Assembly (NCBI GenBank): GCA_009701305.1
Contig: WLKK01000006.1
Coordinates: forward strand, 1 to 32,445
Length of the DNA: 32,445 nucleotides
Direction of reading: 5' to 3'
From: Actinomycetota bacterium
GTDB taxonomy: Bacteria; Actinomycetota; Actinomycetes; Nanopelagicales; Nanopelagicaceae
Shown here: piece after piece, positions 24,295 through 31,360 of the stretch
Position numbering within the stretch: the first letter of the stretch is position 1
Layout: every line of letters begins with the position of its first letter
Translations under genes and position numbers: made by a program
Notes under the pieces: generated by a model
Databases searched by the model: none
Seen by the model: only the letters and a program-made list of their open reading frames with translations
Told to the model about the DNA's origin: nothing

Positions 24295-25113
24295 TTATCT
24301 CTTTTGCCCTGCTTTTCGCATTACAAACCATGCGGCCGAGCCTATAAAAATTACAAGTGAGGTCCAGAAATTCAACCGCATTCCTAAAATTTGGGAACTG
24401 GTATCAATCCGCAATACTTCGATTAGACCTCGCCCTAAAGTGTATAAAGCGATGTAGGCGATAAATAAAGTGCCGGATTTTGCTCCTGCAAAAAACCCAG
24501 CTTTGTCAGCCTTGATCAAAAGTATGGCTACAACCACACACCAAATAGATTCGTACAAAAATGTTGGGTGAAATGTTGGAAAAGATTCATATCCATTTGG
24601 TCTACTAGCTAATGGCACCTGTAAAGCCCACGGTCCATTAACTGGTTTTCCAAAAAGTTCTATATTAAACCAATTGCCCCATCTCCCAATGGCTTGGGCA
24701 AGCAATACTCCAGGAGCAAGGGCATCGAGGAAAACTCCAAAAGTTGGTAACTGTGGCTTACTCTTTAAAAGAAATTTATATCCAAACCAAGCTCCAACTG
24801 TGCCAAGTGAAATTGCGCCCCAAATTCCTAACCCACCACGCCAAATTGCAATTGCATCCAATGGTGAGGAAAAACTGCCCCAAGATGTAATCACATGATA
24901 AATCCGCCCACCAATGATTCCAGCCGGGACTGACCAGAAAGCAATTGTTGCCACATCACCGAGATCTCCACCACGATTTACGAATCGCTTATCGCCAACT
25001 CGAACTGCAATAACTATTCCGGCAATTATACAAAGTGCATAAAAATGTAAAGTTAACGGACCAATATTTAATTCAGATAACGTGGGAGAAGGAATCGCGG
25101 CCCAATTACTCAC
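24295..25113 (-). CDS. lgt: Prolipoprotein diacylglyceryl transferase
   Basis: LHFYALCIIAGIV, GIIGGRIYHVI, AIWRGGLGIWGA, AQAIGRWGNWFNIELFG. Confidence 0.96.
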   Translation of the reverse strand: MSNWAAIPSPTLSELNIGPLTLHFYALCIIAGIVIAVRVGDKRFVNRGGDLGDVATIAFWSVPAGIIGGRIYHVITSWGSFSSPLDAIAIWRGGLGIWGAISLGTVGAWFGYKFLLKSKPQLPTFGVFLDALAPGVLLAQAIGRWGNWFNIELFGKPVNGPWALQVPLASRPNGYESFPTFHPTFLYESIWCVVVAILLIKADKAGFFAGAKSGTLFIAYIALYTLGRGLIEVLRIDTSSQILGMRLNFWTSLVIFIGSAAWFVMRKAGQKR

Positions 25114-25121
25114 GTGATTTT

Positions 25122-25811
25122 TTACTTGATGCCAGCTGCAACTAATAACTTCATAAATTCTGGAGCTGAGTAATAAGCACCACTTGCGCGATCAATTTCT
25201 TTTCCATTTATGAAAACTGTCGGCGTTGAATTAACATTTTGCTTTGATCCTTCGCTACCAACATTTCCAACCCAATCAGCGTACTTACCTTTATTTACAC
25301 AAGTTTCAAACTCAGCACCTGTTACACCTGCAGCTGCTGCAGTTGCGATAACGCCTTCATTACTCCATGCGCCAGAATTTTCAGCTGGTTGATTTGCATA
25401 CATAAATGCGTGGTACTCAAGGAATTTTCCTTGGTCTGCAGCACATGCTGCTCCATTTGCCGCATAAACTGATTCGGGACCTAAAAATGAAAGTGGATGG
25501 AATACCACCTTTGCTTTCTTTTCTACCGCAAGCGCTTTTAGTGCTGCTCCATTTGTGGTCTCAAAGACTTTGCAACTTGGACATTGAAAATCTTCCCAGA
25601 CATCAATCACAGGTGTTAAGTCACCATTAAAAACAATTCCATAGCCATCTTTTACTGAGGCGGCACTAGGGAGTACTGCAGCTTTCTTGCTCGTATTATT
25701 AAAGATAGAAATACCTGCTCCCACGACAACAACTAACGCAACCATTCCAATAACTAACCATCTTGTTATTGGATCACCTGAAGATTTGCCTTTGTTATTG
25801 ACCATTCTCAA
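25122..25811 (-). CDS. Membrane-anchored DsbA-like thioredoxin-fold protein
   Basis: N-terminal TM segment, DVWEDFQCPSCKVFE (CxxC), STPTVFINGKEI (cis-Pro). Confidence 0.93.
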   Translation of the reverse strand: MRMVNNKGKSSGDPITRWLVIGMVALVVVVGAGISIFNNTSKKAAVLPSAASVKDGYGIVFNGDLTPVIDVWEDFQCPSCKVFETTNGAALKALAVEKKAKVVFHPLSFLGPESVYAANGAACAADQGKFLEYHAFMYANQPAENSGAWSNEGVIATAAAAGVTGAEFETCVNKGKYADWVGNVGSEGSKQNVNSTPTVFINGKEIDRASGAYYSAPEFMKLLVAAGIK

Positions 25812-25814
25812 ATA

Positions 25815-26291
25815 CTACCTTGACCCCGGCTCTAAAGCCCACTTGGTATGCGGCCGCCAATATAAATAAACCGCTAAAAGGGCTAGTCCGAAGTCGCGCA
25901 ATACTTCTTGCAAATACTTAGTTTCCCCAGGGGCTACCTGTCCACCGCCGCCAAAACATCCGCAATCAATAGAGAGACCACGCGCCCATGCTGAAGAGAT
26001 CGCCAATATAAATATAAACATTAGAGATCCTGCAAAAAATGCTGAGAGCCGAGTTGCAACTCCTAATATCAATAACGCGCCTAAACCTACTTCAAACCAA
26101 GGTAGTGCATAGCCAAATATATTTGCCACACTGATTGGCAATAGTTCATACGCACGCATCGCTGCCGCAGCTTTATAGGGAGTTGTTACTTTCAATGCAC
26201 CGGCAACAAAGATCACACCACCGAGAGCTAAACGAACAAATAATCCAAGCCAATTGAGTCGAGTCTCTGTCAAAAAGGCCGGTAATTTCAT
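25815..26291 (-). CDS. MauE/DoxX-family redox-associated integral membrane protein
   Basis: Four-TM pattern, R.ALGGVIFVAGALKV, YALPWFEVGLGALLILGV.TRL, DCGCFGGGG. Confidence 0.88.
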   Translation of the reverse strand: MKLPAFLTETRLNWLGLFVRLALGGVIFVAGALKVTTPYKAAAAMRAYELLPISVANIFGYALPWFEVGLGALLILGVATRLSAFFAGSLMFIFILAISSAWARGLSIDCGCFGGGGQVAPGETKYLQEVLRDFGLALLAVYLYWRPHTKWALEPGSR

Positions 26292-27088
26292 CTCGCTTGT
26301 CTTATTCCATCAGCCAAACTTTTAGTCAAAGTTGCTAACTCTTTTAATCCGGTTTCAAAATCTGGTTGTTCTAATAGGATTTTAATGAGTGCTGATCCAA
26401 CAATTACCCCATCTGCGTAAGAAGCGACTTCTTTTGCTTGCTCTGGAGTTGAAACTCCCAGACCAACACAAACCGGAGTTTGTACCGATTCGCGAATCCG
26501 TGCGACTAAATCTTTTGCCGATGATGAAACGCTTGTTCTCGTTCCAGTTACTCCCATTAAACTCGCTGCATAGACAAAGCCAGAACATGCGGACGCAACA
26601 TGATTTAGTCGCTCAGGCAACGAACTTGGTGCGGCCACAAAAATATTATCGATACCTGCTCGATTACTTTCGTTAATCCACGGATTTGCTTCTTCCAGTG
26701 AAAGATCAGGGGTAATGACACCAGAACCGTTGGCAGATTTAATAGCATCTGCGAATTTGGAAATCCCATATTGCTCAATCGGATTCCAGTAAGTCATGAC
26801 AACTGCCGGAACATTTAAATTAGTTGTAAATTCCAAAATTTCTAAAACTTCTTTGGCACCTGCACCATTTGCTAGGGCGATATCTGCTGCCTCTTGAATA
26901 ATTGGTCCGTCCATAATTGGATCGCTATAAGGAAAACCAATTTCGATGATGTCGGCACCATTTTTTACTAGTACTTCGATTGCTGCTTTGCTTTTTTCTA
27001 CTGTCGGAAATCCCGCTGGAAGGTATGCAATAAATGCCGCTCTGTTTTCACTTTTTAACTGCGCAAGTCTTTCTGATAAATGGCTCAT
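26288..27088 (-). CDS. trpA: Tryptophan synthase alpha chain
   Basis: AFIAYLPAGFP, DIIEIGFPYSDPIMDGPIIQ, GFVYAASLMGVTGTR. Confidence 0.97.
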   Translation of the reverse strand: MSHLSERLAQLKSENRAAFIAYLPAGFPTVEKSKAAIEVLVKNGADIIEIGFPYSDPIMDGPIIQEAADIALANGAGAKEVLEILEFTTNLNVPAVVMTYWNPIEQYGISKFADAIKSANGSGVITPDLSLEEANPWINESNRAGIDNIFVAAPSSLPERLNHVASACSGFVYAASLMGVTGTRTSVSSSAKDLVARIRESVQTPVCVGLGVSTPEQAKEVASYADGVIVGSALIKILLEQPDFETGLKELATLTKSLADGIRQAR

Positions 27089-28308
27089 TACATCTTCAGA
27101 TTTTCGAAGTAATTAGCCGCCGTCTCAACATCTTTATCGCCGCGCCCACTTAGATTTATTAGCAAAGTAGCCTTTGGACCTAACTCATTTCCTACTTTCA
27201 TGGCACCTGCTAAAGCGTGTGCAGTTTCAATCGCAGGAATTATTCCTTCGGTTCGAGAAAGAAGTGAGAACGCTTCCATCGCTTCTTTATCGGTAATCGG
27301 GCGATACTCCGCTCTCCCGATGTCATGAAGGTAGGCATGTTCTGGACCCACTCCGGGATAATCAAGGCCGGCTGAAATTGAATGAGATTCACGGGTTTGT
27401 CCATCTTTATCTTGAAGCATGTAAGAACGTGCGCCATGTAATACGCCAGGTCTGCCACCGCTAATCGCACTCGCATGACGTCCGGTTTCAATTCCATCAC
27501 CACCTGCTTCAAGTCCAATTAATCGAACCGAAGTATCTTGAATGAATGGATAGAAAATCCCAATTGCATTTGAGCCACCGCCAACACAAGCAAGTACGGC
27601 ATCTGGAAGTTTCCCGGTTAATTCAATTACCTGAGCCCTAGCTTCATCACCAATTATTCGGTGGAAATCGCGAACCATTGTTGGAAATGGATGCGGTCCT
27701 GCAACTGTTCCTAAAATGTAATGCGTATCTGCAACATTTGTTACCCAATCCCGCATCGCCTCATTTATCGCATCCTTTAGCGTGCGCGAACCTGAAGTAA
27801 CAGGGACTACTTCTGCTCCTAGCAATTTCATCCGGGCAACATTTAAAGATTGACGCTTGGTGTCTTCTTCGCCCATGTAAACAACGCAATCAAGACCCAT
27901 AAGTGCAGCCGCTGTTGCAGTTGCAACTCCGTGCTGCCCCGCACCAGTTTCTGCGATTACGCGACTCTTACCCATTCGTTTAGTTAAAAGAGCCTGACCT
28001 AGAACGTTATTTATTTTATGCGAACCTGTGTGATTTAAATCTTCTCTTTTTAAAATAATCCTTGCCCCGCCGGCATAGCAAGCGAATCTTTTTGCTTCAG
28101 TGATGATGCTCGGCCTTCCCGAATAAGTACGGTGCAACTCATCTAGTTCCGCAATAAATGTTGGATCAGTTTGGGTTTGGGCATGCATCTGAGCAAGCTC
28201 ATCCAGCGCTGCCACCAATGCTTCAGGTACAAACCGACCACCATATTCGCCAAAATGGCCTACTGAGACGTCGGGCTTGCCCCCAGTTAAATCAGTTGTA
28301 GTACTCAT
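27088..28308 (-). CDS. trpB: Tryptophan synthase beta chain
   Basis: [57 protein letters not shown]. Confidence 0.98.
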
Positions 28309-28310
28309 GG

Positions 28311-29141
28311 CTATACCTTAGAGATATCCGGGGTATCGGCGCGATTTATAAAATTCTGGATCATCTGGGCTGGATCCCCATCTTTGACAAGGGCTTCGCC
28401 CACCAAGATCGCCTCGGCGCCGCTATTCCGATACGAAATTACATCAGCTAGAGAAGCAATTCCTGATTCGGCTACTTTTACCGTTCCAGCAGGTATTGCT
28501 TTGGCCAACTCATTAAATGCATTTTGATTTATTTTTAAAGTAGTTAAATCACGAGCGTTCACCCCAATGATTTCTGGGTCAAGTAATAGGGCTCGTTCTA
28601 CTTCTTCAAGAGTATGAGTTTCTACTAACACTTGCATCCCAAGTGATTTTGAAATTACGAAGAATTCACTTAGTTGCAGATCAGATAATGCTGCAACGAT
28701 CAACAAAATAATATCGGCACCATAAGCCCTTGCTTCAAATATTTGATATTCATCAACTGTAAAATCTTTACGTAAAATTGGAATATTGACTGCTGATCTA
28801 ACGGCTGCTAAATCTGCAAGTGAGCCACCGAATTTACGGCTTTCAGTCAGGACGCTCACTGCAGTAGCTCCTCCTGTTTGATAGCTAAGAGCTAGAGCCG
28901 CCGGATCTGATATTTGCGCAAGTGCGCCTTTGCTTGGAGATGATCGTTTAACTTCAGCGATCACAGACAACTTAGAACTTTGTAGTGATGGAAGTACATC
29001 AATAACTGGATTTACCTCAGATATTTTTGCAATCAATTCATTTAATTCAACTAACTTTTTGCGTTCTGCTAAATCTTCTCTTACACCTTCGATTATTTGG
29101 TCTAGTACGTTCAAAATTTTACCGTTTGGCTTTCTGACCAT
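28311..29141 (-). CDS. trpC: Indole-3-glycerol phosphate synthase
   Basis: [45 protein letters not shown] at 29114 ([15 protein letters not shown]) may be the real start and would remove the overlap with the upstream gene. Confidence 0.96.
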
Positions 29142-29316
29142 ATCCCAGTTGACGAAGAACTAGACCGACAAACGGGGCTGCCACAGTCACAATGATTCCA
29201 GTAATTGCAACATTTACATTTGCGATAACAAAAGCCACGCTTGCCACAGTTGAACCCAAGATAGCCAAAATAGTTGTCACCCATGCAGCGACGGTATGAC
29301 CGTGATTGTTGTCCAT
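29119..29316 (-). CDS. HGxxPAAW-type small membrane protein of actinobacterial trp operons
   Basis: [65 protein letters not shown]; strong RBS AGGAGGAG; sits between trpE and trpC. Confidence 0.85.
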   Translation of the reverse strand: MDNNHGHTVAAWVTTILAILGSTVASVAFVIANVNVAITGIIVTVAAPFVGLVLRQLGYGQKAKR

Positions 29317-29375
29317 TTAGCTCCTCCTGCTTATTCGTTTATGACTCTCTTGTTGCCCGTTCACTTGGCTCAATT

Positions 29376-29507
29376 CTAGAGGGTTGGATCCACTCCTTTA
29401 TCCAAAGCGCGCCAAGGATCTTGGACGGAGCGCTCGTATTTAGCAGGAAGCTTTTTTGAACCACTTTTCCGCAGAAATCTGAAAAAACCCTTAAAAAACG
29501 ATCGCAT
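29376..29507 (-). CDS. 43-aa small ORF between trpE and the HGxxPAAW gene; possible short form or remnant of the Trp-associated membrane protein
   Basis: Hand translation MRSFFKGFFRFLRKSGSKKLPAKYERSVQDPWRALDKGVDPTL*; starts 18 nt after the trpE stop; below the track cutoff. Confidence 0.55.
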   Translation of the reverse strand: MRSFFKGFFRFLRKSGSKKLPAKYERSVQDPWRALDKGVDPTL

Positions 29508-29525
29508 CGCTTTCAATTTATTCAA

Positions 29526-31007
29526 TTATTTAACTAAATTCTTAGCAGCAGCAATAGCGCCTAAAACTGCTGCAGCCTTATTCAGGCACTCATTATCTTC
29601 ACTTTCTGGAATTGAATCTGCAACAATTCCAGCACCTGCTTGTACATAAGCAATTCCATCTCTGATAAGTGCCGTGCGAATTGCGATTGCGGTATCAAGA
29701 TTGCCGTTGAAGTCAAAGTAACCGATGCATCCGCCATACAAAGCACGCCTTGTAGGTTCTAATTTTTCAATAATTTCCATAGCGCGCGGTTTCGGAGCGC
29801 CTGACAAAGTTCCCGCTGGAAATACGGCTGCAAGGGCATCCACTACAGATATCTCATTATTTAATTCGCCTGTCACCGTTGAAACTATATGCATGACATG
29901 CGAATAACGTTCGACATTCATGAATTCAATTACCTCGACAGAGCCGGCTTTACATACGCGGCCTAAATCATTGCGTCCTAAATCGACCAGCATTAAATGC
30001 TCGGCACGTTCTTTGGGATCAGCGATCAACTCATTGCCAATTTCGATATCTTCTTCAGCTGTAACGCCTCTTTGTCTAGTGCCAGCAATAGGGTGGATCA
30101 TGGCTTTGCGATCTGAGATTTTTATCAAAGCTTCTGGACTTGAACCAACGATATCTACACCATCATGAAATCTGATCAGGTACATATACGGACTTGGATT
30201 ATGCAAACGCAACATTCGATAAACATCGATAGAACTTGCTTCACAAGGAGTGGAAAAACGTTGCGAAAGTACAACCTGGAATGCCTCACCAGATCTAATT
30301 TCTTCTTTTATTAACTCTACATTTTTTCTAAAATCGACTGATGATGTGGCGCGAATAAAATCAGCCTTGCTTTTTTCACCGACAGTATCGACTTGTCCCG
30401 CCAATGGCGCCAAAAGATCTTTATGCATTTTCTCAATGCGCTCAATTGCATTTTCCCAAGCTTGATCAACTCGTTCACTCGTACCATCCCAGTTAATGGC
30501 ATTTGCAACAAGTAAAACTGTTCCATCAGAATGATCAAATACCGCTAAATCTGAAATTAATTGAAAAGCCATCTCTGGAAGATGAAGATCATCTTTGGCT
30601 AAATTGGGTAACTTCTCCATCCTTCTGACTGCGTCATAACCAAGGTATCCAACTAATCCACTCGCCAGCGGAGGAAGTCCAGAAATCTCAGCACTTTTTA
30701 GATGAGAGGTTGTGATCCGCAATGCCTCTAGCGGATCTATACCTTCTGGTGCACCGGCAGGTTTGCTTCCTTTCCATACTGCTAATCCATGCTCTTCAGT
30801 TAGCGTTGCTTGACTATTAACGCCAATGAATGAATATCTTGACCAAATCTTTCCATTCTCAGCAGATTCAAGTAAAAAAGTACCAGGCCGTTCTTGCGCT
30901 AACTTCCGATATAAAGATAACGCTGTTTCACCATCGGCTAAAAGTTTGCGCGTTACTGGAATAACATTATTTTTTTTAGCAAGTTCGCGAAACTCTTCTA
31001 CTTTCAT
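29526..31007 (-). CDS. trpE: Anthranilate synthase component I
   Basis: [19 protein letters not shown] (LLES feedback motif), [78 protein letters not shown]. Confidence 0.97.
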
Positions 31008-31360
31008 TCTGAAATCTCAATCTCATTTGAGAAGCATGAGTGGGTACCGGTATGGCATGCAACACCTTTTTGATGCACCCGAAGCAATATTGCATCGCCG
31101 TCACAATCTACTGAGGCTGAAACGACTTCTTGCGTATTCCCAGAAGTTGCACCTTTTACCCATAATTCATTTCTACTTCTACTCCAATAAGTAGCTTTAT
31201 GACTTTCTAATGTTTTTTCAAGTGCCTCACGATTCATCCAAGCGAGCATTAAAACTTCATTGCTTTCATCCTCTTGAACCACAACAGCCACAAGGCCATT
31301 TTCGCGATCAAGTAAATTCGCTAAATCAGCGGAGATCTTCATCTGGCTATTCTCCCCCAT
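31004..31360 (-). CDS. hisI: Phosphoribosyl-AMP cyclohydrolase
   Basis: [58 protein letters not shown] overlap with trpE. Confidence 0.96.

Follow-up and report, generated by a model that had tools for sequence, protein, structure and literature searches.

What does the short gap after trpE encode in this actinobacterium, and is its product related to tryptophan? The stretch of DNA that was analysed (hereafter, the window; 32,445 nucleotides) belongs to family f1, taken as Nanopelagicaceae, and its genus is referred to as g1. In the gap lies a reading frame of 43 codons, in which the first-pass annotation saw a possible remnant of a multi-spanning membrane protein known from tryptophan operons.

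The reading frame and its neighbours

The genes around the frame are read from the minus strand in the order hisF, hisI, trpE, the frame itself, HGxxPAAW (DUF6704), trpC, trpB, trpA, a MauE/DoxX protein, a DsbA-like protein and lgt (trpB, trpA and lgt were named from sequence and position):

31004..31360, minus: hisI, left border of the locus in relatives without trp genes
29526..31007, minus: trpE, upstream neighbour of the frame
29376..29516, minus: the frame with an alternative start, 46 residues from a TTG common to 5/5 congeneric species
29376..29507, minus: the same frame, 43 residues from ATG; putative reduced PF09534 (Trp_oprn_chp) protein
29119..29316, minus: HGxxPAAW / DUF6704 small membrane protein, downstream neighbour
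28311..29141, minus: trpC
27088..28308, minus: trpB
26288..27088, minus: trpA
25815..26291, minus: MauE/DoxX-type membrane protein, right border in most relatives without trp genes
25122..25811, minus: DsbA-like thioredoxin
24295..25113, minus: lgt

The gap of 209 nt between the trpE stop (29526) and the HGxxPAAW start (29316) was reported correctly, as was the translation, which belongs to the minus strand; positions 29376-29507 are not open on the plus strand. An overlapping plus-strand frame, 29274-29459, was rejected, since relatives do not keep it. The frames of HGxxPAAW and trpC overlap by 23 bases (29119-29141).

A frame of 43 codons is unremarkable by itself; its conservation is the remarkable feature. 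It is present in all five genomes of the window genus. The ATG at 29507 is missing in one of them (G004), and the sole ATG of another (G002) lies three codons further in; the TTG at 29516, three codons upstream, is common to all five species and gives MKAMRSFFKGFFRFLRKSG... (46 residues). The start is therefore uncertain by three codons.

Conservation of the frame in relatives had been named as a check, and the outcome is favourable: the frame is kept in 5/5 genomes with pN/pS of 0-0.14 over ten genome pairs. A comparison of G000 with G003 shows seven differences within the last 40 codons, every one of them a synonymous third-position change; the 52-59 nt just 3' of the stop codon vary freely among the five species. 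Considering this conservation and these ratios, we regard the frame of 43-46 residues as a real translated microprotein under selection. A chance frame, the conservation of which is owed to an RNA or DNA element, would fit its small size and nothing more; the changes concentrate at third codon positions, and the protein motif described below matches full-length homologues of different DNA and base composition. We consider this explanation refuted, its probability being next to nil.

Relation to Trp_oprn_chp and the graded shortening

Two segments of the product are discussed below:

29463..29501, minus: residues 3-15 (FFKGFFRFLRK region), predicted to form a cationic amphipathic helix that replaces a transmembrane (TM) helix; hydrophobic moment 0.94
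29382..29441, minus: conserved C-terminal tail, KYERSVQDPWRALDKGVDPT

The C-terminus, KYER...WRALDKGVDPT, aligns with the end of Pfam PF09534 (Trp_oprn_chp): residues 23-42 match the last 18 positions of the profile (163-180 of 180) with E=0.0084 and 16.4 bits, which is under the curated cut-off of 29.6 bits. A search of the frame against NCBIfam gave no match. An HMM of the tail was built from 54 full-length proteins outside f1, which were picked for carrying the motif and are biased to that extent; among 9567 stop-to-stop frames from f1 loci, all 74 of its matches at E<0.01 were tail frames (two had escaped only the text pattern), and the window frame scored E=5.8e-4. The frame also fills the Trp_oprn_chp slot between trpE and HGxxPAAW/trpC. 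The similarity to Trp_oprn_chp tails, proposed in the first-pass annotation, is thus borne out by the Pfam match, by the HMM built outside the family and by the slot.

In the full-length proteins the tail positions W, L, D, G, D, P and T are conserved at 94-100%. The invariant residues of 21 full-length homologues (start M aside) are W24, G43, W176, D184, P185 and T186, of which four out of six fall in the tail; the kept pattern is [KR]Y[ED]R, a linker and W..LD.G.DPT. The window frame has neither W24 nor G43 (numbering of L282), the two invariant residues outside the tail, their N-terminal region being absent, and it lacks the four TM helices: it has no hydrophobic stretch of 17 or 19 residues. 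Neither a second PF09534 copy nor a hidden other half of the protein was found in the window's genome, and the viral contigs searched gave nothing. The tail is single-copy in each of the ten genomes searched; weak extra matches in G020 and G037 were rejected as off-frame chance matches overlapping other genes.

The frame is far shorter than its presumed ancestor and scores under the Pfam cut-off, as a decaying remnant of a lost gene might; however, it is intact, and purifying selection acts strongly on it throughout the family's genera, so that decay is refuted by the substitution pattern and appears very improbable. What is observed is a graded series. PF09534 scores above its cut-off in 216 of the 247 genomes sampled class-wide, including mycobacteria and Streptomyces, and in only 2/121 genomes of f1, because the protein is reduced there; family models overlook the short forms. 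By a simple hydropathy rule, the protein of G017 (g14; about 174 residues) has four hydrophobic segments, those of g10, g7, g11 and g6 have one or two (g10 supplying the 2-TM stage), most genera have one TM helix with the tail, and the window genus has none, its tail being preceded by the cationic amphipathic segment. Genera g1 and g10 are sisters with full support, and the last TM helix was therefore lost on the branch of the window genus. The tail is kept in 92 of the 109 genomes with an examined locus, a count that includes a fused form in G016 and omits G118, where the hisI locus was not seen; most genomes compared are metagenome assemblies. From the shared slot, the tail and the 4, 2, 1, 0 series we infer that the frame descends from a full-length four-TM gene. 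The proposed reduction to a C-terminal motif agrees with this series, but the product is not a bare tail, as it carries the amphipathic helix. Genome size as the sole cause of the reduction was rejected: f5 (1.0-1.7 Mb) and G248 (1.5 Mb) are streamlined yet keep the long form.

The segment that replaces the TM helix reads FFKGFFRFLRK or VFKGIFRVLRK in the window genus, with a net charge of +7 or +8 and a hydrophobic moment of 0.91-0.99, higher than in about 99% of same-residue shuffles (p 0.004-0.012, which is modest). In the AF2 model of the 43-mer, residues 3-15 are helical, at low-to-moderate confidence (pLDDT 64). Such a helix would be expected to bind the membrane.

In nine of ten groups pN/pS is lower over the tail (0.13-0.31) than over the segment upstream of it (0.24-0.66), the exception being the g11 pair with too few changes. 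The values are 0.22 vs 0.62 in g8, 0.29 vs 0.66 in g4, 0.31 vs 0.60 in g16, 0.25 vs 0.42 in g2 and 0.25 vs 0.59 in g10; these are uncorrected proportions with synonymous sites near saturation, and a few of the codons counted as upstream may not be translated. Purifying selection thus appears strongest on the tail. The TM segments are also somewhat constrained (0.24-0.66), and the membrane part cannot be called ballast in every case. One could therefore take one TM helix plus the tail as the functional unit, the helix itself acting in an oligomer or as a regulator in a membrane complex, with the window genus as a degenerate exception. Most family members do keep one TM helix under some constraint; however, its sequence diverges faster than the tail, and in the genus without it the entire peptide is very strictly conserved (pN/pS 0-0.14). 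We consider this explanation unlikely.

The tail where tryptophan genes are lost

The name of the family and its usual slot suggest a service to tryptophan synthesis, for example, tethering or regulating TrpE/TrpC or coupling their translation. In most genomes the frame is found between trpE and trpC, often overlapping the trpC start. In one genome (G016, g13; L071 7949-8923, plus strand) a frame with one TM helix and the tail is fused in frame with TrpC (324 codons) and begins on the trpE stop codon; this rests on one assembly. The fusion may be a natural membrane-anchored IGPS; alternatively, a stop codon may have been lost, with TrpC translated from an internal GTG.

The distribution of the tail speaks against such a service. 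What is new here is that the tail persists between hisI and MauE/DsbA/lgt where trpE, trpC, trpB and trpA are lost from the locus. This arrangement, with the tail frame between hisI and MauE/DsbA, is found in 17 genomes of g6, g11, g15 and g16, and the tail evolves with pN/pS of 0.10-0.29 in these groups. Eleven of the 17 have no trpB anywhere, at completeness of up to 99%:

Genomes with the tail and without trpB: G018, G073, G094, G100, G112, G130, G136, G028, G062, G072, G143

An incomplete assembly may explain the missing trpB of an individual genome, but it is an unlikely explanation for eleven genomes that come from three genera and share one type of junction; these genomes are therefore probable tryptophan auxotrophs, as judged from gene content. 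Variable amino-acid auxotrophy at the strain level has been noted in Nanopelagicales (PMC7771536). The other six of the 17 (three of g6; G029, G082 and G124) have trp genes elsewhere in the genome, and the relocated trpE-trpC junctions, where read (L165-L167), carry no tail. Conversely, in 13 genomes of g17 trpE adjoins trpC and the tail is gone; g9, the sister of g17, has lost both. According to the tree, trp genes left the locus about five or six times and the tail was lost about once, in g9+g17; the deep nodes are weak and these counts are approximate.

Selection thus maintains the tail in at least 11 genomes that lack trpB and in six whose trp genes have moved elsewhere; the tail is dispensable for trp in g17, and the relocated operons are without it; a role in tryptophan synthesis seems improbable to us. 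The tryptophan link implied in the first-pass annotation is contradicted. Since the tail is kept without trp genes, and trp genes without the tail in g17, the “Trp-associated” family probably has a function independent of tryptophan, carried by the membrane-presented tail.

Other neighbours do not account for the tail either. MauE was rejected as the linked gene, as g4, g7 and G100 keep the tail without it; so was HGxxPAAW, which most genera have lost without losing the tail. As for hisI/hisF, the tail of g2 is kept although its locus has no hisI.

Several loci deserve separate mention. Three g15 genomes (G082, G124 and G029; L165, L166 and L167, respectively) have a relocated trp operon, which lacks the tail frame and encodes a divergent TrpE (about 674 bits vs about 780), while the tail persists at the original hisI site; this suggests that tryptophan synthesis was lost and then regained. 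In g6 (L064, L065, L179; L290, L291) the tail and HGxxPAAW remain at the hisI site without trp genes, trpB-trpA are found elsewhere, and TrpE of the usual type was not found at E 1e-60. The TrpE model used for the class-wide look at PF09534 without trp genes outside f1 misses alternative TrpE types. In g42 (G145 and G228; L198 and L205) PF09534 lies directly 3' of hisI with no trp genes within reach, and about 2.9 kb with apparent glycosyltransferase and sugar-transferase genes separate it from HGxxPAAW.

A possible docking role and comparison with known systems

We found no published function for the PF09534/TIGR02234 family in the literature. In M. tuberculosis, Rv1610 is located between trpE and trpC (PMC5573416). 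A list of membrane-protein mutants associated with non-culturable states in potassium-limited conditions includes it (PMC4221891); this is at least no obvious tryptophan phenotype.

The AF2 model of a full-length homologue, which is of good confidence (mean pLDDT 89.7), shows four long helices; the loops of one side carry strands, and the tail is flexible, with a short helix at 172-180 over the W..LD motif. An even number of TM helices places both ends on the same side, and the basic residues between the last TM helix and the tail suggest that this side is cytosolic; together with the predicted topology, we presume that the tail faces the cytosol. The earlier suggestion of a functional, cytosolic tail is plausible in view of the selection, which is strongest on the tail, and of the predicted topology.

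We propose the following mechanism. The tail would be a docking peptide that brings a partner, cytosolic or peripheral, to the membrane's inner face, and the membrane part would mainly present the tail: by four TM helices in most actinobacteria, by one in most Nanopelagicaceae, and by a cationic amphipathic surface helix with no bundle in the window genus. The membrane domain of the four-TM protein would have been lost, and the short tail kept as a microprotein; reduction to one TM helix and then to a surface helix would remove the bundle and leave the tail near the membrane. The function would not be tryptophan synthesis, and the gene would stand in the trp block by inheritance. As a whole, a Trp_oprn_chp-derived microprotein that presents a docking tail at the membrane and does not serve tryptophan synthesis is our best explanation, with a probability of roughly 0.6. 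A broader proposal, to which we give slightly less than an even chance, is that about 20 residues of tail form a portable membrane-presented docking peptide for an actinobacterial partner that is widely conserved and has nothing to do with tryptophan, while the domain of four TM helices that defines the family would be dispensable and Nanopelagicaceae would have the minimal natural version.

The name of PF09534 ties a widespread family to tryptophan, while Nanopelagicaceae show that trp genes can go and the protein stay. They also single out 20 residues kept by selection, and the question becomes what binds W..LD.G.DPT.

Among known proteins, the closest is Trp_oprn_chp itself (PF09534 / TIGR02234, e.g., Mycobacterium tuberculosis Rv1610): the window frame shares its C-terminal motif, its single copy and its slot after trpE and before HGxxPAAW/trpC, and differs in having no TM helix, no W and G of the first half, and 43-46 residues vs about 190-230. 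The single-TM short forms of other Nanopelagicaceae (e.g., a BACL15 MAG, locus L267) have the same tail in the same slot but keep one hydrophobic helix, instead of which the window genus has the cationic amphipathic segment. For the four-TM domain, a claudin-like fold is possible. The Mycolicibacterium iranicum homologue (L282 8917-9507, plus strand) has a predicted claudin/TARP-like topology of four helices with strands in loops, and the PDB matches listed by Foldseek for the full-length homologue are nearly all claudins/TARPs (best E=7e-3; TM-scores mostly 0.34-0.54). Claudin/TARP proteins carry a cytosolic C-terminal docking tail. The likeness to them concerns only the manner of working and the similar predicted topology of four helices with extracytosolic strands: no Foldseek E is below 0.001, no sequence relation is shown, and the actinobacterial tail is unlike a class I PDZ ligand.
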